From NCBI GenBank assembly GCA_021030905.1, contig JAGFMI010000022.1, forward strand, positions 62,001-126,000: a stretch of DNA of 64,000 nucleotides, in the 5' to 3' direction. Shown in pieces: positions 4,164 through 64,000 of the stretch. The position numbers and the translations under genes were made by a program. The notes beneath the pieces are model-generated. The model saw only the letters and a list, made by a program, of their open reading frames with translations, did no database searches and was not told the DNA's origin. Numbering within the stretch: the stretch's first letter is position 1; each line of letters starts with the position of its first letter. Source of the DNA: Pyrenula massariospora. Taxonomy: Eukaryota > Ascomycota > Eurotiomycetes > Pyrenulales > Pyrenulaceae.

Positions 4164-6553
4164 ATGTCTTGGGAAAACTCCGCCACTATCTCAGGTCAGT
4201 TCCATTCTCGCGATCACACAGTCTTTAGATATTCTTGCAGGTTACCTTGAGCGTCATCCTCACCTCAACCTACATTTTATCTACCTTTTGATTTGTGCCC
4301 CCATCTCATCACCCTTGTCAAAGCATCCGTGGTGCCGATGATTGGAAACTATCTGCTGCTGCTATCTGAAAAGAGCAACTCTCGCGTGCTGCTGACTGAC
4401 CCTACCCTTGACCCACCTGTCACTCTCAGCTCTCCTAGCTTGGTACCGATTTTCATTGACTAATCTCCGCTCAGGTGGAAACACATGGACCTCTGACGGT
4501 AATCAGGGAGATTCTGGCTGGACTGCTACAAGTGATGCTCGTCAAGGCGCCTCTGGCTGGACTGGCTCTCCTACGGCCGACGCTGGCCAGGGCTGGATAG
4601 ACTCCGGTGAATTTAGCAACAACCAGGGCAACTTTGCTACCAGTGGTGGCTTTGGTGGCGACGCCAATAGTTTTGGAGAGGATGCGAACGCTTTTGGTGC
4701 TCTCGGCGGTGACAACGCCGGTGAATTTGGTGGCCATAGCGGCGGAGGGGACAACAAGTGCCGTAGATGCGGCCAGGAAGGGGTATGTTACATTCTGTGC
4801 GTACCTACAGAGACGTGCTGACTATATGTAGCATTTTGCCAAAGAATGCACAGAACCGCGTAAAATCGAATGCTTCAACTGCGGAGAAGAAGGGTCAGTC
4901 TCTATTGTCTTCCGTCAAACCCTGCTAAGCTTTGACCAGTCACTCGAAATCAGAGTGTACCAAACCACGTGTGTTTAAGGGCAAGTGCAACTTATGTGAT
5001 CAGGAAGATATGTCTCCTCTCACTGACTGGTGTCTTTGACTAACTCTGGATCACGCCACCGCAGCGAGGATTGTCCGACCCGTGTCTTGACTTGTCTAAA
5101 TTGCAAGAAAGAAGGTATGTTTACATGCTGTCTACTCCCTTCTCGCTCAGCTCTAAGTGAAGCAGGGCATGAGGCAAAGGATTGCACCGAAAACCGTGTT
5201 TTCGACCTCAACAACGTTCCTGATCGGACTTCACGCGAAGCTTGGGCAATGCTCGACGCTGCCAGCCGAGAGCGCGATCATGACGACTTCGAAACGGTAC
5301 CTACAAGCATTCTTGATATGATTTCATTAATTGACTCGACATGAACGCAGGCAATGAAGGTCCTTACAAAGGCTGACCGCACACTCACTTACGAAATGCT
5401 TGAAAGACAGTTTCGAGCAAAAAATTTCAATTACTATCTTATTGCAATGGTAAGCAGAACCCACCAAGCCAGCCGGTCCGAAGCGCGGTCTGCTGACTAT
5501 GTGTTGGACACAGGAGAAAGAGATTCCCGACACCTTTACCATCGTTAATCTTCAGGGGAAACTGGACTGTAAATACGCAGTCACCATCAGCAAGAGTATC
5601 AAAGCCCAGCGAAGCACTCACAAAGATCGTTGGCCATCAACACCTGAAGAAAACCTTGAGCGTCTTGCTGAGGCGGGCATTCCGATGGACCGAGGGGTTC
5701 CAAAATGTTCGAATTGCGATGAGCTTGGTCATCGTACGAGGGCTTGCCCGCAGGAACGTATGGCACGTGAGCCTATCGAGATCAAATGTGCAAATTGTGA
5801 GTCGTTCATCCAGGAGATAGTTCAAATGTTTATGCATGGCAGGCGATGACACCGGCCACACAACCCGTGCTTGTCCACAGGAACGCAAGTTGGGTAAAGC
5901 TCGGGAGCCCAAAGAATGCCGTCACTGTCAATCCACGGATCACATTGCGAAAGATTGCCCCAACAAGCCGCCTGCCATGGGTTGCCGCCAGTGTGAGTGT
6001 CATTTATATTATTGCTAACCAGAGGGTTTCTGATTTGAAGATAGGTGGTCAGGAAGGGCACAAGAAAGCGGACTGTCCAAACCCCCCCGACCCGGCTTTG
6101 ATCAAGTGTCGCAACTGTAAGCCTTTCACTTCTCCATATACGATGGAATACTAATGCTGAGAAGGTGATGAGATGGGACATCCCGCCAGAGAATGTCCGA
6201 AACCTCGTGACTTTTCGAGAGTCAAATGCAACAACTGCGGCGAGAGTTGGTTGTTCTTCCCCTGCTTGCGCTCTACTGACAATATCACAGTGGGCCACAC
6301 AGTCAAGCGCTGCAAGCAGCCGATCAAGGAAGACCCTGCAGGAGAAGCCTCTGGCTTTGAACCTCCTACAGGTAGCGAGAATCTGAACAGCGGTGGCGAC
6401 TTTGGCGGCTTTGATACTTCTGGCGGTTTTGACGCTGCTCCTACAAGTGGTGCTGACGGAGGCTGGAAGGACGCCCCTGCAGCTGACGCTGGCGGTTGGA
6501 CCGATGCTCCCGCTCCAACTCCCACTCCGATTATGACTGGCGGTGGCTGGTAA
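4164..6553 (+). CDS. ten-zinc-knuckle (CCHC) nucleic-acid-binding protein
   Basis: Twelve exons: 4164-4194, 4475-4782, 4832-4893, 4940-5007, 5055-5114, 5166-5296, 5351-5449, 5514-5796, 5843-5992, 6045-6116, 6165-6245 and 6291-6553, giving 535 residues. A Gly/Asn/Trp-rich N-terminus (about 100 residues) leads to four CX2CX4HX4C knuckles. A conserved spacer of about 130 residues follows, then six more knuckles and a Gly/Pro-rich tail ending GGGW. Knuckle cores are QEGHFAKEC, EEGHSKSEC, QEGHRSEDC, KEGHEAKDC, ELGHRTRAC, DTGHTTRAC, STDHIAKDC, QEGHKKADC, EMGHPAREC and EMGHTVKRC. CCHC proteins of the Gis2/CNBP type bind single-stranded RNA or DNA; the exact role here is unknown. Ten introns follow GT-AG. 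The intron at 5008-5054 appears to be AT-AC (see its own entry). Most introns fall inside knuckles. Confidence 0.88.
5008..5054 (+). other. probable AT-AC intron (U2-type) in zinc-knuckle gene
   Basis: The exon ends GAAG at 5007, the intron begins ATATGT at 5008 and ends GGATCAC at 5054, and the next exon begins GCCACCGCAGC. Joining gives QEGHRSEDC, a perfect knuckle core in frame. A branch-like GACTAAC at 5038-5044 puts the branch A 11 bases from the end. The canonical alternative (GTCTCC at 5012 to CAG at 5064) is also in frame but yields QEDIEDC, with no His ligand. The donor resembles the fungal GTATGT with G1 changed to A and the last G changed to C. It does not resemble the U12 donor ATATCCTT. 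Inferred from the protein; no transcript data. Confidence 0.7.
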
Positions 6554-25582: not shown

Positions 25583-25823
25583 TTCCTATGCGTACCGACC
25601 TTTCTTTTTGGGAATGCTCATGATTATTGTAGTTGAATGGTCGGGTCTATGAAACAAAAGCAAGGCTGACGGCTCCGTAAACTCAACACCAGAATATGAT
25701 TGCTCACGCAGGCCGCAAACCCGTGGGAAACCCAACACCTCATCCCAACGCTCAATAATTGGGTCAAGCAATCTTGCAAGCCGGCACGGGGAGCCACCAT
25801 GCCAGATGCCTAAGGCGTCCAGC

Positions 25824-29746: not shown

Positions 29747-31024
29747 ATGTCTACACTAAATGACACTCTTGATTTCGAAAACCGAGGTCCGAAGGAAAAT
29801 CTCGTCATCCCCGTCAAGGCGATAAGCGGCTGCTTTATAGCGGTTATCACGATTGTCGTTGTCCTTCGGTTGTGGGTGCGCTTGAAAGTGGTCAGACAAT
29901 CTGGAGCAGACGACGGTATGACTATAAGTTCCGCTGCACTTGGGTCCGGTGCTGACAGCATTAGTCTTAATGACCGCGGCAGGCATCATTGCAAACGGCG
30001 TGAATATTCTGAGTATCTTTGGTAACCCTCCCCCCCTTCCCCCCTCTAGCTCTGTTATCTTTGACCACTGACTAGTAAAGCACTCAAAATGGGTCTCGGA
30101 TATCACTTGCGAGATTTAACCCCAGGAACAGCCGATGAATCTAATCTCAAAAGAGAAGAGACCCTGCTCAAAATGATACTCGGTGGTACACTAGCTTTTT
30201 ATACCGCCCTCCCTCTCGCGAAAATCAGTATCAGTCTCTCCTACATCCAGATCTTCGGAGTGCATCGGTGGTTCAGGAGGCTTATGCACTTTACAGTGGG
30301 TTTGCTCATCGCAATCTGGACTTATACCCTGTTCACAACGATTTTTCAATGCAAACGAATATCTGACGTGTGGAACGTTTCTACCAAGCGCCGATGCATA
30401 GATGACTGTATGATGCAATACGTTACGTCCATCTTGCACATTCTCATAGATGTGCTACTTTGCCTGGTGCCTCTGCCGCTGGTTTACCGACTGAACATGC
30501 CAATTGCTCGGCGCGTCAGCGTTAGCTTTCTTTTCGGCATAGGTTTACTGTAAGTCAAATATACTACACATTTGCTGTCATGGTTTTCTGACGAGCTGAA
30601 CAATAGCACTGCTGTGGCCGGCGTGCTCCGCCTGAAAGGTCTTGACTATGCCCTAGACGGAGACTTCACGTACAACCTCGCTCTGGAGATTATTTGGTCC
30701 ACCGGGGAACTTCACATTTGCATCATCTGCGGCAGTGTACCTAGCTTGAGGCCGCTTTTTGCTCGCTGCTTGAGAATAAAAGCAGATACTATGCAGATTC
30801 CGATTATTTCGGCCGCGCGAACCCCTACAGATCCTCCTGCTCCGGCTACTGCTCTGACGAGGATACACAAGACTACACATGCGACGCTTGAGAACAGGCC
30901 CCGGGACGGCGATGAGCAACGAGTAGCCTACAACTGGCGCGTGGAAGGTGGAAGCGATCTAGAAGGGACTGGGGTTATCGACGGCGGTTGTCAAGAGCTT
31001 TCTTTCGGCGGTGGCATGCGATGA
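29747..31024 (+). CDS. PTH11-type rhodopsin-like integral membrane protein
   Basis: Exons 29747-29915, 29959-30021, 30081-30549 and 30607-31024 give 372 residues. The third exon starts after TAAAG because only that acceptor keeps frame (FALKMGLGYH). Around seven spans are visible, including VKAISGCFIAVITIVVVLRL, LVLMTAAGIIANGVNIL, TLAFYTALPLAKISISLSYI, LLIAIWTYTLFTTIFQC and IDVLLCLVPLPLVYRL. The family carries the fungal rhodopsin-like domain seen in PTH11-related proteins, thought to sense surface or chemical cues at the plasma membrane. Typical family features are the conserved Cys in CKRISDVW and the ELHICIICGSVPSLRPL segment. The long polar C-terminal tail is cytosolic. The family is large and mostly uncharacterised; there is no CFEM domain. 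Confidence 0.85.
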
Positions 31025-45914: not shown

Positions 45915-46563
45915 GTTCTTGTGCCGTTGGACGCAGATTGAAGTGATGATGGCCATCAACATGTTCCATACACACATCTGGGCCCACATCCCCATTTATC
46001 ACTTGGCATTCATATTCATACTTTCTTGCACAGACCGAGAGTCAAGGTTGTGCCGCTCGCTCGGGGGTTGGGAAGCAATCTAATTACGCGGCATGCGGTT
46101 GACTTACTTTATCGGAGTTATGACGGGGCTTAAGCACAGCCGAAGTTTCATACCGTCATTCAGAAAGCTCGGTATCTTTTGTTCCTTAACGAGATGACCG
46201 GCGTATGAGTAGACTTCGGGCTGCCAATTAGGTATGCCTCGGAGGAAAGCAGGAGGCGGAAATGGCTCGTGGATGAACTTCCTTGCAATCATATAATACG
46301 ATTGTAAATAGAAATGCTAGACTTGTCCAATAAACATTAACACTGTGAGGCGGCAAGAAGTTTTCGATATAAAAAATATCTTCAGTCGCCAATCAAGAGG
46401 TATCGATGATACTAACAGGTGCCAGGCGAGGACGAGGGGGAGGCTCGCAAGATATGACGTTCCGGGGTTTAGCCGAGACTTTACCCTTGACGCGCTCCGG
46501 ACGCGTTTGGCAAACCTCCTGCAGACAGCCCCAAAAAAAATTTAGCTACCCTTCCGAGCGAGC
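45915..46563. other. upstream region of MSH3 with a possible small ORF
   Basis: Holds the MSH3 promoter and a minus-strand 62-codon frame (46104-46292) that looks protein-like and is listed separately. Confidence 0.45.
46104..46292 (-). CDS. possible small protein exon, unknown
   Basis: Reads MIARKFIHEPFPPPAFLRG then IPNWQPEVYSYAGHLVKEQK and IPSFLNDGM. A GTATGA donor follows FLNDG, so it may be the first exon of a short spliced gene divergent from MSH3. The Pro/aromatic composition is unlike a chance frame. There is no family match. Confidence 0.28.
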   Translation of the reverse strand: MIARKFIHEPFPPPAFLRGIPNWQPEVYSYAGHLVKEQKIPSFLNDGMKLRLCLSPVITPIK

Positions 46564-49500
46564 ATGGAAGTGACGAAGAAAAAGCAGCAAACGCTGTCAA
46601 ATTTCTTCAAGAAGCCTATTGGTGGAGTACAATGTTCTCGAAGCCCTGACCAGAAACTTCCTCGCACGCCTGACCAAGATGACCTTGACACTCCTCCCAG
46701 AAAAAGGCAGCGAAAATCCGAAGAAAAAGAGGAACGGTGCCCAGCTACACCAACAGAAAAGCCGAAACTTGTTGCAATAGATCCTAATGGTCAACGCAAG
46801 AACGCACGGACTGCTCAGTATCTTTTCTCATCTTCACCGTTGCAAGAAAACGCCAGAGAGGAGCCTCTAGATGTCGATGCCAAACGAAGGAAAGAGCAGC
46901 TGCATGCTAAGTTTGTGAAGAGGCTCGGGAAACCAGATAGCATCGCCGAGATCAAACGTCGCAATCACACACTTGTAGAAAATGGGGAAGATGAGCACTC
47001 TGGGGAGGGCTCGGGATCAGAAGGCGTTGCAGATGAACCAAAACCCGCTACTAACGCTCGCAAAAGTGCGACGAACAGGAAAAGCGCGAGCAAGCTTACG
47101 CCTATGGAGATTCAAGTTCTCGAAATTAAGAGAAAGCACATGGATACCATTCTCGTAGTTGAGGTGGGCTACAAATTCAGATTCTTTGGGGAAGATGCTC
47201 GGATCGCTGCCAAAGAGTTGAGCATCGTTTGCATACCGGGAAAGTTCAGATATGACGAGCATCCGTCAGAAGCACACTTGGACCGATTTGCTTCCGCTAG
47301 CATCCCGGTCCATCGATTACATGTTCACGTCAAGCGCTTAGTGGCTGCAGGGCACAAAGTTGGTGTTGTCAGACAGCTTGAGACAGCCGCACTCAAAGCT
47401 GCGGGTGATAATCGTAACGCTCCGTTCGTACGGAAGCTCACAAATTTATACACTAAAGGCACATACATCGACGACGTCGAGGGTGTTGAACAACCTGGAT
47501 CTTCCCCCTCAATCGCTGATTCATCCACAACAGGCTTCTTACTGTGTTTGACAGAAACGAACGCAAAAGGTTGGGGTGACGATGAAAAGGTTAGAGTAGG
47601 AATTGTTGCTGTGCAGCCAGCTACAGGGGACATTGTTTACGACGATTTTGAGGACGGCTTCATGAGGAGCGAAGTGGAAACCCGGCTCTTACATTTGGCT
47701 CCTTGTGAGCTTCTCATCATCGGTCAAGTCTCAAAAGCCACAGACAAGTTGATCCAACACCTCTCTGGGAGCAAGAGGAATGTATTTGGCGACAAGCTTC
47801 GCGTCGAGAGAAAAGAGAAGCCGAAGACCATAGCTGCACAGTCCCATATTCACATATCCTCCTTTTATGCCGACATGATCAAAGCTGCCCAAGCAGAGAG
47901 TGATTTTCATGCTCATAGCTTACTCGAAAAGGTTCTCAACCTACCGGAAAACGTCATTATTTGCCTCTCTTCCATGATCAACCATATGCAAGAGTACAGC
48001 CTGCAGCATGTCTTCGACCTTACTAACTACTTCCAGCCATTTTCGGCCAGGTCGCATATGCTGCTAAACGCCAACACGCTCTCAAGTCTAGAGATTTATC
48101 AGAACCAGACAGATCACACCGTGAAAGGTAGCCTTTTTTGGACCTTGGATCGGACACAGACTCGCTTTGGTCAGAGGCTACTTCGGAAATGGGTCGGTCG
48201 GCCTTTGCTTGACAAAGCGAGGCTAGAAGAACGAGTTGAGGCGGTAGAGGAATTGCTCGATGAGGAGCGAGCAGGGCTGACAGAGCGGATCAAAAAAGTG
48301 CTTTCGAGATGCAAAACGGATTTGGAGAAAACGCTAATTAGGATCTATTATGGCAAATGCAATCGCCCTGAATTGCTGAACGTACTTCAGGCTCTACAAG
48401 AGATCTCTACAGAGTTCTCAACTATTACAGCAACGAATTCTGGTTTCAAGTCAAATTTGATTACGTCTGCTCTGAGTTCTCTGCCGTCCATCTTGACCCT
48501 GGTAACTAGCCATCTCGACAAGATCAATCTTTACGCAGCGAAAGGTGATGATAAGTATGCTTTCTTCACATCAGACTCTGAAACTGAGGACATCACTGAT
48601 CACAAACTTGGAATTGCATCTGTTGAGCAAAGCCTGGATGATTACCGTCAAACGGCAGCTGAAAAGCTCGGGCGCAGGACACCAGTCAATTATGCAACTG
48701 TTGCAGGCATCGACTTTCTGATTGAGATTGAAAATTCTTCAACAACAATCAGGAGAGTTCCAGCGTCTTGGGTCAAAGTCTCTGGCACAAAGAAACTATC
48801 GCGTTTCCATCCTCCTGAAGTTGTTAACCTAATTCGAGAACGAGACCAACACAAGGAATCTTTGGCCGCAGCATGTGACGTGGCATTTTCCAATCTACTT
48901 GCTGAAATTGCTCAGTCATACTCGATACTACGGGACAGCGTGCAATCACTTGCTGTCCTGGACTGTCTAATGGCGCTTGCATCAGTGGCAAGCCAGCCCA
49001 GTTACGTGAAACCCTCTTTCGTTACTGAGACAAAATTGGAGATTAGAGGTGCTCGTCATCCGATGATAGAACAAATCCTAGTTGACTCCTACGTTCCAAA
49101 TGATACCAATCTCTCCATGTCCGGAACCCGAGCAGTTCTTCTTACGGGACCTAACATGGGAGGTAAATCAAGTTACGTTCGATCGGTCGCTCTAGTCTCA
49201 ATTATGGCACAGATTGGCTCTTTCGTGCCTGCCGAATCCGCCACGTTAGGCCTTCTCGATTCAATATTCACACGTATGGGTGCTGAAGACAACATGGTGA
49301 AAGGAGAGAGCACTTTCATGGTTGAACTTGGTGAGACGAGCGAAATCCTACGAGCGGCTGGCGAACGATCTTTGGTGATACTTGATGAACTAGGGCGAGG
49401 CACGAGCACGCATGATGGGGTCGCTATTGCGGAGGCAGTCTTAGATTACGTTGTGAGCGAGCATAGGGGGTTGTGTGCCTTCATAACGCACTACCAAAGC

Positions 49501-49863
49501 CTAGCAAGGATGGCTGAGAGATTCGAAGGCGCCTCGTTAAGAAACCTTCACATGAAGTTCCATGAGGAGATCCTCAAGGTCGAAGCTGGGAAACCTGTCG
49601 ACTCAAGGATCACATTCCTGTACGAAGTTGGCGAAGGAACGGCCCATCGCTCATACGGGTTGAACGTGGCCAGACTCGCCAATGTTCCTGAGAACGTGAT
49701 AGAGGTTGCAGCGGACAAGAGTGCCGAGATGGAAACGCAAATGCGAGGCAAGAGTGTCCGAGGGTTGATTGGCATGTTGGATCAGCGGACAGAGAGTGGT
49801 ATGAACGAAGACCAAGAAGCTAAATGGCTAGAGAATTTGGTAGAGGGAATCGGGCAGCTATAG
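46564..49863 (+). CDS. MSH3: DNA mismatch repair protein MSH3
   Basis: Single exon, 1099 residues, longer than the yeast protein (1018). The N-terminus has a PCNA-binding PIP box QTLSNFF at residues 9-15, then a disordered basic region. The mismatch-binding MutS domain starts near residue 180 ([30 protein letters not shown]). Lever and clamp domains follow. The ATPase has Walker [18 protein letters not shown] near residue 860, [18 protein letters not shown], Walker [17 protein letters not shown], and the dimer helix [20 protein letters not shown]. With MSH2 it forms MutSbeta, which recognises insertion-deletion loops. MSH3 rather than MSH6 is indicated by the [10 protein letters not shown] region and the lack of the MSH6 Phe-X-Glu wedge. 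Confidence 0.97.
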
Positions 49864-51788: not shown

Positions 51789-53001
51789 TCACAAGCACTG
51801 CGAATAATAAGGATTTAGAACCGTGCAAGTAGACCCTACACGAATATGTCAGTTTCTTCAAGTCTATAGTAGAGCACGAGGCTAACGCTTACCGGAAGCA
51901 CACGTCCCTGAGCCCGTCCAGCCCTGTCCACCACACTGCCCATACTTCGCAATCGACCCTCCACTTGCAGCGCTGGTCGTCACCGGCGCGGCACTTGTAG
52001 TTGTCTGGAGCGTTGTCTTCACGCTCGTCGTCGACGTTGACGCCGGTTTGCTCGTGCTCACAGCTGTGGTCGTGCTCCCGCTTCCACTCCCACCAGCAGC
52101 GCCGCCAGGTCCGGAGACGGAAGTCGTCAAGGAGCCGGACTCGATGTACACGCCGCTGTAGTACCAGTCCTCGACATCGGGGGAGGTCAGCGAGGAGCTC
52201 ATGGGCAGGCGGAGGACGCCCAAGTGCCAGTCTGCGCCGTTGGAGGAGGTGGAGACGCTGACTGGGCCGGCGGTCTTTACGAGGGGGTCGGAGCCGGTGC
52301 TGTGGTAGAAGGTTACGGTGTTGCCGGAAAAGTCCTGTAACTAGGTTAGATTGCCCAGGGAGATGCGAAGATGATGGAAACGTACGATTCCGTAGGCGAT
52401 GTTGTGCCATACGTCCGCGTCCCAGGTCGTAGACCAGTAGCTGACTTGGTTGACCATCCACCGTAGGTTGGTGTCTGAGGAGCCTTGCTCGCTGCTCAGA
52501 AGACCGTATTTCATCTCGGTGAAATGCGATTCAAAGAAATTGACTTGGTGCTCTAATGCCGAACTCGGTGGGTTCGTCCCCGTCCGCTTCATGCTGAAAT
52601 GGTAGTAAACTAGGCCTTGGTTGATGGGGGCGGTGGTTTGGGGGATGAGTTCGGTGCGGCGCATATTCTGTCCATTCCAGTACGAAGTGCTATCGATTGT
52701 AATTTTGACGCCTTGTTTCGACGATGTATCGGCGGGGTTCTTGTAGCTGGAGGCAAGGTCGACGTATTCAGTGACGGCGCCGCTGCCATGGATATAGTAT
52801 TGGTATGGGCCAACCTCGCTCGACCACGACCCTGGCGAAGTCGTAAGGATAACATCAAGATCAGAATGGTCTTTGTCACATACATTTGTTAAGGTCAGTG
52901 CTGGATGTCAGGTCATTGAAGCGGCCATCCCAAAGGACAGTGCCCGCCAGGGTAGAACCAACGAGACTGGTGGCCGCAAGTATGAGTTTTGCCACGCCCA
53001 T
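51789..53001 (-). CDS. secreted GH131 beta-glucanase with C-terminal CBM1
   Basis: Exons 52884-53001, 52386-52831, 51893-52334 and 51789-51835 give 350 residues. A signal peptide (MGVAKLILAATSLVGSTLAG) is followed by the GH131 core: TVLWDGRFNDLTSSTDLNKW, VGPYQYYIHGSGAVTEYVDL, STSYWNGQNMRRTELIPQTT, QVNFFESHFTEMKYGLLSSE, and DWHLGVLRLPMSSSL. A Ser/Thr-rich linker leads to a cellulose-binding CBM1 module (YGQCGGQGWTGSGTCASG, then STCTVLNPYYSQCL) with its four Cys and aromatic binding face. GH131 enzymes cut beta-1,3/1,6/1,4-glucans. All three introns are GT-AG; the last splits the CBM1 in the Gly codon after CAS (phase 1). It begins the plant-wall cluster. Confidence 0.94.
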
Positions 53002-54189
53002 CGTGATGAACCGGAAGACAAGAAGGAGGAGAGAAACAATTAGGACTTGAATATCAAGGCAAAAAGGATTGGAAACGCGAACTTCACCGCATATGAAGGC
53101 ACGACACTACAGGTCGTTCTCTTCAGCTTTTACATTGCCTACCTTGCTTTTGAGCCTCTTGGAGCATGTCCGTTTCAGCGGTAAATCTTGGCGGCCCTGC
53201 TTTCCGCATTTTTCTGATCTACCTCGTTTGGATATGATTGCGGACACCAAATCCGGCAGGCAACCCTCATAGAGGCTGTGCGGTCGAGAGCAGACCAAGT
53301 GAGGCCGGTGTGGATAAGCTCATATGGGGTCACAGGCAAGTCGGCCGTTTCAAAGGACGGGCTGCATGGATGGCGCAATAATCTGGAATGAAGAGCAATT
53401 ATTGGAGCAAGGGCATCTGCAAGATTTCCGTACCTGAAGATCGTCCACCTCTAGGAGTTCGCGCGGAAGAAAGCGAAAAAAAGCCCTGGACGGAACTCTG
53501 ACAGCGATAGCTTTGTAATGACAACAGTGGATGACATCCAGTGGCCGGGGTTCGCAATTTACGGCAAAATCAACCTTGGCAACAACTATGCAACGTCGAC
53601 CAGATAGATTCAATATTATGCCGTCTCCGGAAATGTGTTTGAGAGACCCTGGGCAGCAGTTGTATCGAGTGTCCGCATGGGTTGGCTCTTGCACCTCCAA
53701 CGCACCAGATCATACCTTCCTACGCCTACCTCTTCTAAAGGAACGCAGGGAAATCGAAGCATTCCGGAGTAAGCCCACTGAATAATGTATTTTCAGCTGG
53801 CAGTATGATGTTGGACATGTTTGACAAATCTTGATCCATGTTTACCGCGTCTGGCGGCCTCCCGGCCCGCACATCAGTTGTTATTCTCTCTCAATTATCT
53901 CTTCACGCTTACCGGAACTTTGCCGTTGGCTCTTACCGATTCGCTCTAAGAGACTATTTGGCGTTATGGGTCTGGATCAAGCTTTCTGTACAACCCTACA
54001 AATTGCCTATTTCGGGAATACGGAACCAAATATTGTATTTACTCCTGACGGCAAACAAGTAATGTCCGTCTCTCACAGTACGCCTTTCTGAAACCCTATT
54101 TCAATCAAGTCTTTTCTGTTCCCTCCATCTTTCAACGACCTTGTTCCTCTTCCTCTTCCCCTGGTCTCTCTCTGCCATCCGGACTCAGC
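53002..54189. promoter_or_regulatory. divergent upstream region of GH131 and AA9-1
   Basis: About 1.2 kb between divergent secreted-enzyme genes; it must hold both promoters. The stretch before the AA9 start is CT-rich (54120-54175). No gene is supported. Confidence 0.5.
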
Positions 54190-54911
54190 ATGAAGGTCTC
54201 CGCCACCCTTGCTGCGCTCACAGCGCTCGCTACCCAAACCTCAGCTCATTGTGAATATATCCGGAAAAGCCGTTTTCTCCCAATTTGCTGACTGTAGATC
54301 TAGACATTTTTGAGTATCTCAACAGTTACGCCCAATATCAGTACATCAGACAAAACACCAATTACAATTCCCCAGTTACCGACCTCACGAGCAATGACCT
54401 GAGGTGTAATGTCGGTGGCGAAACCAGTGGTAGTACCCAGACAACCAGCATCGCAGCCGGTAGTGCGGTCAAGTTCACAGCAGACGTAGCAGTCTACCAT
54501 CAAGGTCCAGTCTCATTCTATATGTCGAAAGCTCCATCAACAGCAGCATCGTACGACGGGTCCGGGGCATGGTTTAAGATCAAGGATATCGGTCCTACCT
54601 TCGATGCTTCTGGGACTGCGACCTGGGACTTGGAGCAGTCTTACTCCGTCACTATTCCAAAGTCACTGCCTAATGGTGACTACTTGCTTCGCATACAGCA
54701 GTTGGCCATTCACAACCCGTACCCTGCTGGTATCCCGCAGTTCTATATCTCGTGTTCTCAGATTACCGTCACTGGAGGAGGCAGTGGCTCGCCGTCGCCG
54801 ACTGTCAAAATTCCAGGATTTATCACTGGAAAGGAGCCAGGTTACACCGTGAATATCTACAACAATTTCCACAACTACACGGTGCCGGGGCCAGCGGTCT
54901 GGTCGGGGTAG
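54190..54911 (+). CDS. AA9 lytic polysaccharide monooxygenase 1
   Basis: Exons 54190-54250 and 54298-54911, 224 residues. A signal peptide [19 protein letters not shown] ends just before His, so the mature protein starts with the copper-binding His1 (HYLDIFEYL). The intron splits the codon right after this His. Further AA9 hallmarks: [20 protein letters not shown], the second Cu His in [13 protein letters not shown], the [20 protein letters not shown] segment with Gln and the axial Tyr, and the C-terminal YTVPGPAVW. It is a single-domain enzyme without CBM. It should oxidise cellulose or hemicellulose with electrons supplied by the CDH two genes downstream. Confidence 0.95.
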
Positions 54912-55790
54912 ATGGACCTGGATCTGGACTTGGTCAGATACGATGGAGTCAAACGTGACTAGCAAAAGATAGGGTTCGAAGATGGGGTTTAGTTCAATTA
55001 CGGATTCAATCTCGAATCTCTCTGGATTATATTCTAGCGCATAGCATTGTATATAAGTCCAGATCTTGTCCTATGTGTTCAGTCTGAGCAAGAGAGGCAT
55101 AATTAGCAGTCTGCACCCCTGGCGTGCCTTGGGTGATATTTCTTGGCAAACCTGTGCCTAGCGTTCCCCACATTGACCTGCGCTGTCAAGGCTTTGGACA
55201 GCAGACTTCTTCACAACAAAAAGGAAGACTGAGAAGCTGACTTGCTCACACTCTGACTTGTCGCCAAGATTCAGGGAAGTTCATGGGAACTTGGGTCTCT
55301 TTCTTCTGACCTTTCATGCTCTCCATCTCGGCCTTCAAAACGTGGTTTGGTAATTTTCCTTTTGTTTTGAAGCAAATAATAGCAGTTTCAGGCACACGCG
55401 ATAAGATCTAGACGCTGACAGGGCAAGAATGCACCCAACAAGTGCAGCCATTCTCAAAAGGGCGCGGGGCGGTCATTTGCCGCCAGTCTGTTGAGGTGTA
55501 AAGCATTGGCAATCTTCATCACTCCGCGACAACCTCAATTTTCCGTCAATCGCCAAGGTGGGTCCTATATTACAGCTGCGAGCTAGCCTGTTTATACACT
55601 CTGTACTATCGGATCTCCGGGAGCTGGGATCGGGCTGGAGTTCGCTCACGGTTATTTCGAGCGTTTCAACAAGAGACAGTACAAATATGCTTGTAAGGTC
55701 CGGCAGTTCTAAGAGATGTAGCCCCTACAGCCATAAGCCTCTCCCTCTTCCGCTCTCCTCTGCTACTATTGTTGCCGTTAGACGTCCATC
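54912..55790. promoter_or_regulatory. upstream region of AA9-2
   Basis: 879 bases between two co-oriented LPMO genes. CT-rich sequence precedes the second start (55740-55785). No gene is supported. Confidence 0.45.
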
Positions 55791-56651
55791 ATGAAATCTC
55801 TTGCTCTTGTTCTTGCTGTTGCTGTGCAAGGCGTCTTTTCGCACACAATCTTCACTCAGCTGAACGGGAACCCTGTTAGCTACGCGATCAGAGACCCTAG
55901 CTATGATGGACCGATCACAGATGTGACATCGAACGACATTGCGTGTAACGGGGGGCCAAACCCGACGACTCCGTCGTCAGCGAAGATCACCGTGGCAGCT
56001 GGCTCGCAGGCAAAGCTGACTTGGAGGCACACCCTCACTAGCGATGCCTCGGACGTCATTGACTCATCCCACAAAGGTCCAGTCATGGCATACATGAAGA
56101 AAGTCAGCAATGCAGTGACAGATGTTGGGTATGGCTCTGGATGGTTTAAAATTGCTTCGGACGGCTTCAGCAACAATGCTTGGGGGGTTGACCGCCTGGT
56201 GATTGCCCCAGCTCCAGGGGACCTGAACCTTTTCTGACAGGCTCGATCCAGATTGCCAATCAGGGAGTGCAGACTGTCACGATTCCATCATGTCTTGCCC
56301 CAGGCGATTACCTGCTCCGTGGCGAGCTCATTGCCCTGCATGGTGCAGGCTCTCAAGGGGGTGCTCAATTCTATGTATGTTACCATTGTTGATCTCCGGG
56401 AGAAGAGAAGCTAACTCTGGCTCAGATGGAATGTGCGCAGATCACGGTCACGGGAGGCTCAGGAGCGAAGAGCCCTGCCACCGTCAGCTTGCCGGGCGCC
56501 TACAAGGCCACAGACCCAGGAATCCTCATCAACATCTATTACCCAACAGTCACCTCATACACGGTATGTGATGAAGAGTAAAATCTTTTCCGCAATATGG
56601 AAGACTAATAGTCAATTCTAGCCTCCTGGACCAGCTGTCTTCTCGTGTTAG
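55791..56651 (+). CDS. AA9 lytic polysaccharide monooxygenase 2
   Basis: Exons 55791-56198, 56252-56374, 56426-56563 and 56622-56651 give 232 residues. The signal peptide [17 protein letters not shown] leaves His1 at the mature start (HTIFTQLNG). Hallmarks are [20 protein letters not shown], the copper His in [25 protein letters not shown], and [18 protein letters not shown] (formed by the 56199-56251 intron). [20 protein letters not shown] and [15 protein letters not shown] carry the second-sphere His and Gln and the axial Tyr. It ends PPGPAVFSC. The acceptor CCAG at 56251 was chosen because it alone gives this family-typical join. It diverges from the first LPMO, so the pair probably differ in substrate or regioselectivity. 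Confidence 0.94.
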
Positions 56652-57893
56652 ATGAAGGGCGACAACGAGAATTCGATAGCAGCACTTTGGAGTTCTGAGC
56701 GACGGCACTGGTGGCTGGTAACTTTAGAGATTGAACACGGTTAAATCAGAGGTTCCATTCTGCAAAGCCCGTCTGGTAACATTAGTGCACTTCTATCCAA
56801 CAGACGCCAGGAACGAATCAACTGCTGTAGAAGTTCTGACCTTGTCCTTGTGGACCAGGATGCTAGATATGCGGCGGCAGCGTGATCGAGGTGTCATGAC
56901 ACATTCTCAGCCCTTTCCATACGATGCCGAGTTGTCTAGATAGTAGAGCGCTACCCTTCCCACCATTCTGATGCGTTCGTAGTTGACTTTGATAGTGACC
57001 CCCTCATTTGAAATGACCCTTATCGATAGCCCCGGATCAACCGGACCGAAGCGAGTCTCCAGCAATCCGCCCATTCGTGGGTTCACGGCGCCAAATGAAA
57101 TGACGGTCTGACACCGGCGACCACTATATGACCCGGTCCTGCAAATTAACTTCACTTACTAGTTCCCTCTATTGTTGTTTCTCCGAAACATCTCTCGTTC
57201 AGCAACCGACAGTCGAATGGTAGACATGGGCTGTATTGGCGCGGGATGGATTCTCCACTGCAACTAGACATTTCCCGAGCTTTGCCTGTCTTTCCGCTGA
57301 TTTGTTTCCGTGTGTCTCGTTGGCTAATTGCCATGAACATACCTGGAGGTTTTTCTATCTCCGCCCTATCGTTACAGGATCACCAATTATACCAAGTTTT
57401 AAGCCTTTCAGACCTGGCCGCGGGCGCCTAGACCCACATCTCGAAGCCTATCCGTGATCTCGAGATACGATTTTGCCAGAGATGCCGCTATGGAAAGCAA
57501 CCGCTTACTGCTCGCCTGTCATGCTGGACTCGTCCGCCCCTCCTACCGATACATATCCAATAGCACCTAGATCTAGCTCTGGTATCCGCCTTACGAGGTT
57601 CCGCCGGACCGTATACTCTACCCTGTGTTCTGTCTAGAATTTCTATTCCTTTTCCGGGAGCATTCATCCACGCGTACATTCATTTCATACCTCGGGTTCG
57701 AGTGCTAGTATCGCCTTTGCTTTCTTTGTCGGCAAATTTCCGCCGTTTCCTGTTCCAGTGTTCCCCATCTGTGGGTCTTTCGCGTTCTTTTTTAATAGGG
57801 TTCTCTTCCCTGTTTCTTTCTTGGCTTTTCCTGCAGCCTCTCAATACCATCTGCGCACAGTTCAACAAGTTCTGTCCATCAGCCACTAGAACG
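56652..57893. promoter_or_regulatory. upstream region of CDH
   Basis: 1.24 kb. A GGCTAA at 57322-57327 matches the XlnR/Xyr1 core and lies about 570 bases before the CDH start; one short match proves little. A strong CT-rich tract (57711-57840) precedes the start. No gene is supported. Confidence 0.4.
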
Positions 57894-60610
57894 ATGAGGT
57901 TCTCATCAGGACTTCTTGGCGGCCTCGTGGCCTTCGCCGGATTGGGTATGTGTGAAGAAGCCTCCCTTCCAAGGAAGGAAAAACTGACACATGATCAGCG
58001 AGCCATGCCGTGCTTGGGCAAATGACAATGTACACCGAGCCCAACACCAAGATCACCTTTGCAACACAACCAGGTACTGTCACTTGGGGCTATGCTCTCC
58101 CACCGTCAGCTGTCACTTCAGATGCCACAGAGTATATTGGGTACATTGTAAGCAAAGACCTCGAAGTATCTTACTTCCACTGACAAGTATAAATAGCAAG
58201 GTCCATTGACGACCAATGGAGGATGGGCTGGAATAAGTCATGCCGGTTCGATGCCCGGCGGTCTGTTGCTTATGGTCTGGCCTAATAACGGCAAGATTCT
58301 GACATCTTTTCGCTATGCCACGTATGCCCCGTAAACATGACTACGATCGCACTCGAAACTAACAACGCATCTAGGGGCTACGTTGACCCGAATCTGTACA
58401 CGGGTAACGCCACTGTCACCCAAATCTACACATATGTCAATTCGACGACTTTCACCCTTATATATCGCTGCCAAAATTGCTGGTCTTGGACCGTTGATGG
58501 AACCACCGGTAGCTCAAGCACTTCCTCGGGGTTTCAGCTTATTGGTTGGGCACAAGCCAATGAGTATCCTCTGACGCCATCTGATCCAAATTCCGACATG
58601 ATCCAGCATGAGAATCAAAATCTATTTGGTGCATTTCCAACGTCAGCAACTCAAGCCTCTTACTCCGCATGGGCCACGAAAACGCTCTCGGGGGGTGGTG
58701 GAACCACATCGAAACCTACTACAAGCCCCACATCGTCCCCGACAACTATCACAACATCGAAAGTCACAACCACTAGCGTAGCCGGAACCCCAGTTCCAAC
58801 GACAACATATGACTACATCGTGGTAGGGGCAGGTGCTGGGGGTCTTCCACTCGCAGACAAGCTTTCTGAGTCCGGAAAGAGCGTGCTTCTCATTGAGCGT
58901 GGTCCAGCCTCATCAGGCAGGTGGGGAGGGACTCTGAAGCCCAGCTGGCTCAGTGGCACCAACCTGACAAGGTTTGACGTGCCCGGGCTTGACAATCAGA
59001 TCTGGCATGATTCTGCCGGCATTGCCTGTGCAGATATCACAACGATGGCCGGTTGTGTTCTTGGCGGAGGAACGGCGATTAACGCTGGGCTTTGGTGGAA
59101 GCCTCCAGCTCAGGATTGGGACACCAATTTCCCCACAGGATGGAAGAGCACTGACGTCTCCGCTGCCGTGAGTCGTGTTTTCTCAAGGATTCCAGGTTCA
59201 TACAAACCATCCATGGATGGCCAGCTGTACCTACCGTGGGGTTATAATCTGATTGGAGGAGCGCTTGCCAGTGCAGGGTGGCAGAACGTTACTGCAAACA
59301 GTGTCCCAGACTCCAAGGACAAGGTTTTCACCCTCGGACCGTTCATGTACTCAGGAGGCGAACGTGGCGGCCCAATGGCAACCTACCTCGTAACTGCAAA
59401 CGCCCGGAAAAACTTCAAGTTATGGCTCAACACTGATGTTCGAAGGGTTGTTCGTTCAGGCGGACATGTTACCGGCGTCGAAGTGTCAGCATACGCGGCT
59501 GGAGGATACGGTGGTGTCGTCAAAGTCACACCCGGGACTGGACGGGTCATTCTTTCCGCAGGCGCTTTCGGCTCAGCTAGAATCTTGATGCGATCGGGCA
59601 TTGGCCCTCAGGATCAGCTACAAGTGGTTCAGAATAGCGCGATCGACGGCAAGACGATGATCAACAGCACCCAGTGGATAAATCTGCCCGTTGGATACAA
59701 TCTCGACGACCATGTGAATACTGATATCGTTATCTCCCACCCGAGCATAAACTTCTACGACTATTATGGTGCGTGGAGCAACCCGATCGCAGCGGACAAG
59801 ACGTCGTATCTGAACAAGAGAACCGGCCCTATCGCTCAGTCAGCACCGAACATTGCTCCTCTCTTCTTCCAAAGTGTCACTGGTGCAGACGGTGTCAAGC
59901 GTCAACTCGAATGGACGGCGCGGTGTGAAGGTTCACTGGGCGCACCTGACAACAATTCCATGACGCTCAGTCAGTACCTCGGCAATGGCGCCAAATCTCG
60001 AGGTCGAGCCACCATCGGAAGCGATATGACTATGTCGCCTTCGACAGTTCCATACCTTCATGACCAAAATGATGTAGCCACGGTCATCACAGGCATCACC
60101 AACATCCTCAACATCCTCAAGACGGTAAAAAATCTCAGCATCCTTCAGCCTGCGACCGGTGTCTCGGTCACTGACTTTGTCAACAACTATGGCGTTGCCA
60201 CCTCGAGTCGAACGGCCAATCACTGGGTCGGTACTGCAAAGATGGGCACGGATGACGGTCGAGGCATGGTCAGTGGAGTTGCCGGCACAGCAGTCGTCGA
60301 CACCAATACGAAGGTGTACGGTACCGACAACCTCTTCGTGGTCGACGCATCCATCTTTGGCGGGATCGGGTCGACGAATCCGAGTGCATTCATCGTTTCG
60401 GCGGCGGAACATGCATCGGAGAAGATCTTGGCGTTGGCGGCGCCCGCAACAGTTGCGAAGTACGGACAATGTTTTGGGAACACCTATACGGGCAGCTCGG
60501 TGTGTGCCAGCGGTGAGTATTCTGATCCTCTTCCATCATGCTTTGCTGACCATAACTCGGTAGGCACGACATGCCAAGTGAAGGATATCACCTATGGGCA
60601 ATGTTTGTAG
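57894..60610 (+). CDS. cellobiose dehydrogenase, class II, with CBM1
   Basis: Exons 57894-57945, 57999-58147, 58197-58321, 58375-60512 and 60564-60610 give 836 residues. Order: signal peptide (MRFSSGLLGGLVAFAGLASH), AA8 cytochrome domain (GQMTMYTEPNTKITFATQPG, the CQNCWSW disulfide), and a Thr/Ser linker. The AA3 GMC flavin domain starts TYDYIVVGAGAGGLPLADKL with the FAD GxGxxG; CVLGGGTAINAGLWW, the catalytic His in TANHWVGTAKMG and Asn in GSTNPSAFIV follow. A C-terminal CBM1 (KYGQCFGNTYTG through TYGQCL) completes it. CDH oxidises cellobiose to the lactone and its heme donates electrons to LPMOs. Last intron splits the CBM1 at the same Gly codon and phase as in the GH131 gene. Confidence 0.96.
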
Positions 60611-61956
60611 ATCGATGAGTGGAGGCGACTTGAGTGATTACTGTAGCGCCCTGCTTCATGTCCACTAATATCCATGCACGTGCATTTCAGCCTGGTGCTC
60701 TGTGATGGACCAATTGCGACATGTCGAGTACGAGAGCCTATGCCTCGATAGGAAGAGTGAGCGTGCTCTCGTCAGCACTCTCCAGTCACGTATTTCGTAC
60801 GTCTGAGCGTGCCTTCCTTCCCTGTCTCGCGGAAACGGGAAGACGGCGTCCTTGGCAGGCTATTCCGCTCTCGGCTAGTGGAGAAAGGTGCGGACCGTTC
60901 CGGAGCCTTTCCAGCAGTCGATCGTCTTCTTCCAAAGTCTTTTTCTGTCTTATCAATCCCCCGAGTGTTGCTGCATGGTTCGGCGGACGAGTCGGCGGAG
61001 CGGGTCCGGAGCTTGGCGGCTTATTTCCAGTTGGCGCGAGCCTTGCACAGGCCACCCGCTGCCATTCCCTTGTCCCCACCCTCCCCCCAACCGGACTTTT
61101 TTTTTCTCAACCGTTGCACAAGCCACCCGCTGCCACTCCCTTGCCCCCGCCCCCCCCCACCCCCTCCCCAACCGGACTTTTTTTTTTCTCAACGTATGAA
61201 ACAATTCTACCACCTAAGGGGGTGAAATTGAAGTCCAAACCATCTAACGGAATTAGGTGCGATCAGCGCGCAGCAAAATATCTTGCTATAGTCTACATAA
61301 TAACCATACTTATATTTATTATACCTTGTGAAGTCTTGGAGATACTTTTTCTGTATAATCATTGTGTCTAACTGTATATTTATCTAATAGAGGCTGGGGA
61401 CAGCCTATGAACGGTTATTTGGAAGTTTGTTTGCTCTATATGGATGGACAATGACGTAGTGGTCCGGGCTTCGATTTCATCCTCTTACACCGTGCCAGAG
61501 AAAAATCTTCTTTTCACTTTCCTCTCACAGGTTGAGCCGTCGGATAAACACTTCCCTTTGCGGCTTTATGCGGACCTTGGTGGGTCCTACGACGTCAGCG
61601 ATGATTCACACTGCGCTGGATTTCTAATGATGCTTTTGGCTGAGCAAAGACGCCCAACAGATCAGCGCATGTAAGGACCCCCATGCCATTGTGCGTTTTC
61701 TCATTAGCTTCTGCAAATCTCTTCTTCATTTAGCTGGATTTTACTTTTCAAAGACTGACTTATTAAATCGTTTCTCCGTTCGCTGATATCTTCATTTTCC
61801 GCTCCGCTCTTAAACCCGTTCTGCCCTAGTTTTTCAAGCTTTTATTTCTTCTGTACCGTAGCTTCTTATAGCTATCATCACTACAATAGTCTCGCTGAGG
61901 GAGCGAGGTTAGACCTTGTTTTTTGACAACTCAACTCCTGACGGGCACAATTCACG
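60611..61956. other. intergenic with tandem repeat and AT-rich stretch
   Basis: 1.35 kb between CDH and the ABC transporter. It holds a two-copy pyrimidine/T-rich repeat (61043-61193), then a distinctly AT-rich stretch at about 61250-61400. No gene is supported. Confidence 0.45.
61043..61193. repeat. tandem duplication, two copies of 71 and 80 bases
   Basis: Both copies begin TTGCACA and contain GCCACCCGCTGCCA, then a C-run, AACCGGAC and a T-run ending CTCAAC. Copy one is 61043-61113 and copy two 61114-61193; they differ mostly in the lengths of the C and T runs. Confidence 0.85.
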
Positions 61957-64000
61957 ATGTGGGCGTCGCATCCAGACGAGATGCTTCGGCGGCAGGCGGA
62001 GCCAGAAGGTACATCCCTCGTCGCGCGATTTCTACGGAGCGCTAAGCTATCTCCTAATCCTAGGAACGCCGGCTCCGCTCCACAATCAGCAATCCAGACA
62101 TGATGGCCGCAACCCAGGCACATCCACCGAGAGTGACGAGACGGCTCTTGGAATTACTCGCGCCGGAACATGGGGAGAAAAAGATGCCGTTCCTCCCATC
62201 AGCCACGAAGAGGCGACGCAAGATTTCGAGACACTTCGCAAAGAACTCTCCGAGGTAAGCCAGCAACGGACAAGGAGCAGGGCATCGACTATCCGAACCA
62301 AGAGCCATTTGTCGCACACACAGACCAATCGAACAAACTCAAGGAGAACTAGAACAAGAGACTCGACCGTCTCTGACGAAGGTCCGATTTCCAGTGATGC
62401 GATCGGGGAAGGCAAAGATTTTGAATTGGATGGGTTTCTGAAGGAGGGACATTTTGAAAAGAGGACTGAAGCCGGAGAGTCGGCTAAGAAGGTTGGAGTC
62501 ATCTTCAAAGACCTTTCCGTGAAGGGATTTGGTGCGACCGCTGTGCTCGTGAAAGATCTACCGCAAGCGATTCTTGGGACGTTTGGTCCTGATTTCTACC
62601 ATTTGATCTGCCGATTCATTCCTCAACTCGATTTTGGGCAAAAACCACCAACTCGGACTCTATTAAACGAGTTCACAGGTGTTGTGAAAGATGGAGAGAT
62701 GATGCTGGTTCTTGGACGCCCCGGTTCGGGATGCACCACCTTCCTCAAAGCTATTGCCAATGACCGCGCCTCTTATGCGGAAGTATCAGGGGACGTCACA
62801 TATGGTGGCATCTCTGCTGAGGAACAAAGACGCTCGTACAAGGGTGAAGTCGTTTACATGCCTGAAGATGACCAGCATCTTCCTGCCCTTAACGTATGGC
62901 AGACGTTGAAGTTTTCCCTGATGACCAAGACTAGGAAAAACTATGCCAGCGACATCCCCGTGGTCATCAACGCACTTCTTAGAATGTTTGGCATAACGCA
63001 TACTGCGGGAACATTGGTGGGAAATGAGTTTGTAAGAGGTGTTTCAGGGGGTGAGCGTAAGCGTGTCAGCATTGCCGAGACACTCGCTACCAAATCGGCT
63101 GTTGTGTGCTGGGATAATTCAACCCGTGGCCTCGACGCCTCCACCGCCTTGGATTATGCGCGATCGTTAAGAGTGATGACCGATATCTCAAATCGGACGA
63201 CTTTAGTCACCCTATACCAGGCAGGGCAAGAAATATATGACCTGATGGACAAGGTTCTTGTAATTGAAGAGGGCAGATGTATCTTCCAAGGTGCAGCAAA
63301 TGAGGCCAAAGCCTACTTTGAAGGCCTCGGATTCTTTTGCCCACAGAGACAGACTACTGCAGATTTCTTGACGTCAATTGGCGATCTGAACGAACGGCAG
63401 TTTCAGACCGGTCGTGAACGCGAAGCACCAAAAACTGCAAAAGATCTGGAAGAGGCCTTCAGACACTCAAAGCAATACCAGAACGTGCTAAGAGAGGTGA
63501 AAGACTACGAGCAGCAACTCCAAGAAAGCGAACATGCTGATGCTCGCCAATTTCAGTCCGCTGTCGGTGAGACCAAAAGTAAGCATGTGTCGAAAAGTTC
63601 CAGTTATACTGTTTCATTTCCCCGCCAGGTGTGGGCCTGCACTCTAAGAGAATTTTGGTTGCTATGGGGTGACAAGACCACCCTCTACACGAAAGCTTTC
63701 ACTTTAGTTTCTATTGGTCTCATTGTTGGCTCCCTCTTTTATGGTGAGAGCCTTGATTCGTCTGGCGCCTTTTCCCGGGGTGGTGCGCTTTACATGTCGA
63801 TTGTTTTCTTGGGCTTCTTGCAATTGACCGAGTTGATGAAAGCGGTGTCAGGTCGGGACGTTATTTCCAGACACAACCAGTACGCCTTTTATCGACCCTC
63901 GGCCGTCGCGATCGCCCGTGTCATCCTCGACTTCCCGGTCCTTCTTGTGGAGGTCATTGTCTTTGGAATTCTCATGTATTTTATGAGTGATCTGGATGTG
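61957..64000 (+). CDS. PDR-type ABC (ABCG) transporter, N-terminal half, runs off right edge
   Basis: Exon 1 is 61957-62008 (MWASHPDEMLRRQAEPE) and exon 2 runs from 62064 to the edge without a stop. A Ser/Arg-rich N-terminus leads to the first nucleotide-binding domain. This has Walker A VLGRPGSGCTTFLKAIAN, the signature EFVRGVSGGERKRVSIAE, Walker B-like SAVVCWDNSTRGLDAST and the LVTLYQAGQEIYDLMDKVLV switch. The start of the first membrane domain (LYTKAFTLVSIGLIVGSLFY) follows. Cys replacing Lys in the Walker A (GSGCTT) and Asn in place of Glu in WDNS are normal for NBD1 of PDR proteins. Such full-size transporters export drugs and plant defence compounds at the plasma membrane. Neighbouring plant-wall genes suggest, but do not prove, a plant-associated role. 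Confidence 0.95.

Follow-up and report, generated by a model that had tools for sequence, protein, structure and literature searches.

The 47 nt at positions 5008–5054 of the window (the whole stretch of 64 kb that was analysed) very probably form a short AT-AC spliceosomal intron that a filamentous fungus, presumably an ascomycete, excises with its ordinary U2-type spliceosome. Judged from its sequence, this intron, the fourth of a gene whose protein carries ten zinc knuckles, is a convincing new case of a rare intron kind that was already known. The features on which the discussion is based are the following, in window coordinates.

4164–6553, plus strand: whole gene model, with 12 exons, 11 introns, 535 aa and ten CX2CX4HX4C zinc knuckles (PF00098)
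4940–5007, plus strand: exon 4, which ends one base into the Gly codon of knuckle 3
5008–5054, plus strand: predicted AT-AC intron (intron 4), 47 nt, phase 1
5008–5013, plus strand: its donor, ATATGT, equal to the GTATGT of introns 2 and 5 but for the first base
5038–5044, plus strand: its branch motif, GACTAAC; the branch A is base 5043, 11 nt from the end of the intron
5051–5054, plus strand: its acceptor, TCAC, in which 5053–5054 is the first AC downstream of the branch motif
5055–5114, plus strand: exon 5, which begins with GC and CAC, giving the Gly-His of knuckle 3, and contains the start of knuckle 4
5115–5165, plus strand: intron 5, GTATGT...GCAG, the canonical counterpart within the gene

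Gene Model and Zinc Knuckles

The gene model is complete, and its spliced product is a CCHC zinc-knuckle protein: besides the ten motifs, a Pfam search recognizes ten stretches of zf-CCHC (PF00098) with a score of 150.4 bits (E = 3.9e-45), the cut-off being 20.8. Comparison of knuckles 1–4 with the sequences of solved structures returned 28 matches at E values up to 0.01, the best being yeast AIR2 (2lli, E = 4.4e-11) and most of those ranked below it retroviral nucleocapsids, whose presence is expected because the zinc knuckle is a small motif. The fungal relatives of the ten-knuckle protein presumably go under the name CnjB.

The junctions of the model were placed by hand. Seven of the ten introns besides intron 4 are well fixed because they lie inside zinc knuckles; introns 1, 6 and 7 are fixed by the reading frame alone. 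All ten are GT-AG introns, nine of them 45–64 nt long and the remaining one (intron 1) 280 nt. Intron 5 occupies in knuckle 4 the same place that intron 4 occupies in knuckle 3, interrupting in phase 1 the Gly codon that precedes the His. A different place is shared by introns 8, 9 and 10 (window positions 5797–6164), each of which splits, also in phase 1, the codon for the second Cys of a knuckle. Intron positions thus recur with the knuckles, as if the gene had been built from duplicated intron-bearing repeats.

Splicing Signals of Intron 4

The earlier note, made from the same DNA, had proposed the AT-AC intron with the ends, donor and branch motif given above, and both its coordinates and its letters proved to be right, as did the distance of 11 bases between the branch and the end of the intron. 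Joining 5007 to 5055 yields CNLCDQEGHRSEDC, the third of the ten knuckles, with the CX2CX4HX4C pattern exactly restored as had been claimed; if the intron is retained, a stop is reached after 166 residues. The last exon base is a G and the donor carries on with TATGT after its first base; 8 of the 9 positions of the U2 consensus are matched (5–9 of 9 in the other ten donors of the gene). The likeness of this donor to the fungal GTATGT is also borne out: but for the first base, its six bases are identical to the donors of introns 2 and 5. There is a G at +5 and a T at +6, and the CC of U12 donors is missing. A G at +5 is reported for the U2-type AT-AC introns of sodium-channel genes, and a T at +6 is said to aid recognition by the U2-type machinery (PMC2831892). 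The distance of the branch A from the intron end falls within the peak of 11–14 nt reported for the introns of Trichoderma (PMC4324775). Intron 4 combines frame-restoring AT and AC ends, a U2-like donor with G at +5 that lacks the U12 consensus, and a U2-type branch motif at a normal distance, all of which are among the features by which a U2-type AT-AC intron is recognized.

The predicted pairing of the donor with U1, calculated for an 11-base U1 5′ end and with intron 4 as the sole AT-AC intron folded, amounts to −0.2 kcal/mol, the weakest value among the 11 donors of the gene (−2.6 to −8.4 for the others). Several rival donors pair more strongly, for example the one at 5030 (−3.7) and the GC donor at 4981 (−6.4). 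The low energy probably reflects the mismatched A with which the intron starts, as it breaks the helix; such an effect would apply to other AT-AC introns as well.

It is known that a contact between A and C at the first and last intron bases can replace the usual G-G contact. In the mechanism that we propose from the sequence and from established knowledge, U1 would pair with AG on the exon side and.UA.GU on the intron side of the junction, tolerating a mismatch at intron position 1, U2 would bind the branch at GACTAAC, and U6 would read UAUGU, the same letters that it finds in the GUAUGU introns of this gene. In the second step the A-C contact would then take the place of G-G, and because of this replacement the first AC past the branch would be used. 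The product of this splicing path would retain all ten knuckles.

Alternative Splice Pairs and Chance

We have tried GT-AG, GC-AG and AT-AC pairs separated by at least 35 nt between positions 4945 and 5113, while keeping the other introns fixed. A full-length frame is preserved by 19 of the 95 pairs tested (8 GT-AG, 1 GC-AG, 10 AT-AC), and all ten knuckles are preserved by a single pair, 5008/5054, in agreement with the AT-AC reading of the earlier note; each of the nine canonical pairs in frame loses one or two knuckles. One of these nine had been singled out in that note as the only GT-AG alternative in frame. The statement that it removes the His of the knuckle is correct, but its uniqueness was too strong a claim, because nine canonical pairs within 4945–5113 keep the full-length frame. 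The alternative in question is:

5012–5064, plus strand: rival canonical intron GTCTCC...GCAG, 53 nt, in frame (533 aa), which takes out the His of knuckle 3

If this weak-donor intron were spliced in place of intron 4, the product of 533 residues would be left with nine knuckles, the third (CNLCDQEDIEDC) being dead. Its GT-AG ends, the preserved frame, the GCAG acceptor and a branch A located 21 nt from its end are all in its favor, and we infer that a pair of this type is the one that standard gene finders would choose; nevertheless, its removal costs the His of an otherwise perfect knuckle, and the Pfam matches to zf-CCHC over knuckles 3–4, which otherwise comprise two stretches with 34.8 bits, shrink to a single stretch whose 18.6 bits fall short of the cut-off (20.8). 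Furthermore, its donor agrees with the consensus at only 4 of 9 positions, compared with 5–9 for the ten canonical donors of the gene model, and gives a U1 duplex energy of +0.7. On balance we consider the use of this pair improbable.

An explanation of a different kind is that the intron at this place is an ordinary GT-AG one, and that the terminal A, the terminal C, or both, stem from mistakes in sequencing or assembly, as might be suspected from the fact that intron 5, at the matching place of knuckle 4, reads GTATGT...CAG. This explanation requires a separate error at each of precisely those two bases that touch each other during splicing, in a gene model that is otherwise intact. An error in the donor alone is of no help, as the frame that results from splicing 5008 to the next AG (5064) runs into a stop. 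We regard errors of this kind as very improbable.

The AT-AC intron can also be reached from the knuckle itself. If knuckle 3 is real, the length of the intron must be 47 nt; among the 13 registers examined that preserve the knuckle (with donors from 4998 on) none has GT-AG ends (0/13), and the only one with AT-AC ends is 5008/5054. The registers 5009/5055 (TA-CG ends) and 5010/5056 (AT-GC ends), in which the CX2CX4HX4C pattern is kept with an Asp before the His, were rejected on the basis of their ends, as we know of no class of splice sites with TA-CG or AT-GC ends.

The presence of some AT..AC pair within 13 registers is by itself common (5,523 of 127,880 start positions, or 4.3%). The more specific pattern ATATGT..AC with a length of 47 nt occurs at 2 places in the two strands of the window, and only at intron 4 does it include a CTRAC branch. 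A first-order Markov simulation of 3,837,180 positions produced 28 instances of ATATGT..AC, of which 2 had CTRAC; the corresponding chances per 13 registers are approximately 9.5e-5 and 6.8e-6 (the latter from two events), figures that serve only as a guide, since the patterns were picked after the site had been seen. The pattern of intron 4 exceeds chance. A looser scan for AT-AC introns in both strands of the window returned 14 intervals, two of which start at the donor of intron 4. Two others were considered as candidates and discarded for want of coding support: 29924–29974, where one frame is open over the join but meets a stop 16 codons further on, and 25588–25682, where no frame is open across both flanks.

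The Spliceosome Probably Involved

AT-AC ends are also found among U12-type introns, and intron 4 might in principle be removed by the minor spliceosome. The distance of its branch from the intron end is compatible with this reading, as it lies within the reported U12 optimum of 11–13 nt (PMC3584512), and so is the detection of minor snRNA genes in a fungus; the publication in question ascribes a minor spliceosome to many fungi, but found these genes in only one fungal species (PMC7072748). However, the donor of intron 4, ATATGTCT, does not obey the U12 rule RTATCCTT, in which one C may be T (PMC2846911), as the earlier note had observed in stating that this consensus is absent. Scored against ATATCCTT, the donor matches 5 of 8 positions, exactly as many as that of the canonical intron 5, the missing ones including the CC. 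The best match of the intron to the U12 branch consensus TTCCTTAAC is 6/9, a value that lies inside the range of the ten canonical introns (4–7 of 9) and below introns 1 and 6 (7/9). In addition, neither in Ascomycota nor in Basidiomycota did a large survey find convincing minor introns (PMC10639083). We have rejected a U12-type intron on the basis of donor and branch, and the chance that it is correct after all appears to be minimal. An Rfam scan of the 64-kb window gave no matches at the gathering scores, a result that says little about the genome. Removal of intron 4 by the U2-type (major) spliceosome is likely, based on its sequence and on this survey result for the two phyla.

In yeast, which is without a minor spliceosome, AT-AC is described as second only to GT-AG in the efficiency of junction pairs, and the product of one AT-AC protointron has been cloned and sequenced (PMC6726248); the ranking reportedly goes back to Parker and Siliciano in 1993. 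Elsewhere it is stated that the U2-type spliceosome recognizes AT-AC introns poorly, and a table in the same publication lists none in S. cerevisiae or S. pombe (PMC7367187).

Other Genes in the Window

The proteins encoded in the window include an AA9, a cellobiose dehydrogenase, a GH131, HisG, MutS, RRS1 and DAP3; together with long reading frames free of introns, they suggest a filamentous fungus, probably of the Ascomycota. Comparison of the AA9 protein with solved structures (31 sequences) did not narrow down the clade. Genes for GH131 (minus strand), an AA9 monooxygenase (plus strand) and cellobiose dehydrogenase (plus strand) are found within approximately 8 kb at 52341–60610, and constitute a possible small cluster for the degradation of cellulose; AA9 enzymes are known to receive electrons from cellobiose dehydrogenase. 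At 61913–64000 there is the start of a PDR-type ABC transporter (ABC_trans_N, ABC_tran, ABC2_membrane), which runs past the end of the window. Long intron-free reading frames are also present in the window: for example, the frame at 46546–49863 extends without interruption over 1,105 residues, contains MutS domains I, II, III and V, and probably represents MSH3.

Relation to Known AT-AC Introns

These results can be compared with what has been reported on AT-AC introns in other organisms. The earlier note called U2-type AT-AC introns very rare, and this is accurate for fungal annotations, in which AT-AC introns represent 0.019% of the total (PMC7072748); a share of this size sets a low prior for reading intron 4 in this way. 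In RNA-seq data from Trichoderma longibrachiatum 69 of 14,305 junctions are given as AT-AC (PMC4324775), and in human fungal pathogens the reported share of AT-AC junctions ranges from 0.09 to 5.19% depending on the species (PMC6176087). In Fusarium graminearum AT-AC is among the non-canonical sites listed; Sanger sequencing served to check seven genes that have such sites, with no indication of whether an AT-AC case was among them (PMC3577648). With AT-AC introns counted across several fungi, intron 4 belongs to a rare but known kind. The introns of T. longibrachiatum and F. graminearum are of the same kind and come from filamentous fungi, a likeness that is drawn at the level of kind and without comparison of genes or sequences (PMC4324775, PMC3577648). 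A literature search, limited largely to papers with open access, returned no description of an AT-AC intron in the gene analysed here.

Outside the filamentous fungi, the closest parallel is with the AT-AC type II introns of sodium-channel genes (for example, SCN4A intron 21), which share with intron 4 the AT-AC ends, the G at +5 and the lack of the U12 donor consensus (PMC2831892). In contrast to these, intron 4 is 47 nt long, has a fungal CTAAC branch and resides in a fungal host; the likeness is one of description, and the splicing of intron 4 is predicted. The AT-AC protointron of yeast SUT635 and the alternative AT-AC junction of RPL30 are further examples of such ends being used without a minor spliceosome, but they are non-coding or alternative (in SUT635 both GT-AG and AT-AC are used), while intron 4 is predicted to be a normal coding junction (PMC6726248). 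Finally, in a GFP reporter studied in Arabidopsis an AT-AC and a GT-AG intron compete and only the AT-AC product codes correctly, a situation similar to that of the intron 4 region (PMC5473141). In that transgene the GT-AG intron is nested inside a U2-type AT-AC intron (PMC5473141), whereas the rival of intron 4 is shifted downstream, by 4 nt at the donor and by 10 nt at the acceptor.

One could go further and suppose that the AT-AC junction has been kept because it is slow, such that together with the in-frame GT-AG rival 5012/5064 it acts as a switch between a ten- and a nine-knuckle RNA-binding protein, with the truncated product of 166 aa on retention, and that this switch is conserved across a fungal clade; we consider this idea highly speculative and most unlikely. 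A search for orthologues gave one pattern match in a collection of viral contigs and 37 in a collection of genome contigs, with no confirmed relative in either; this absence says nothing about conservation because neither collection is fungal.

With regard to its significance, intron 4 would represent a clean natural swap of the first and last intron bases in a lineage that is thought to be without a minor spliceosome. Since a GT-AG intron is present at the matching place of the next repeat, the swap would offer a convenient natural experiment on the origin and the tolerance of A..C ends. There may also be a practical consequence: gene finders that admit only GT-AG and GC-AG introns would probably mis-call the exon structure at intron 4, and thereby lose a knuckle from the predicted protein.
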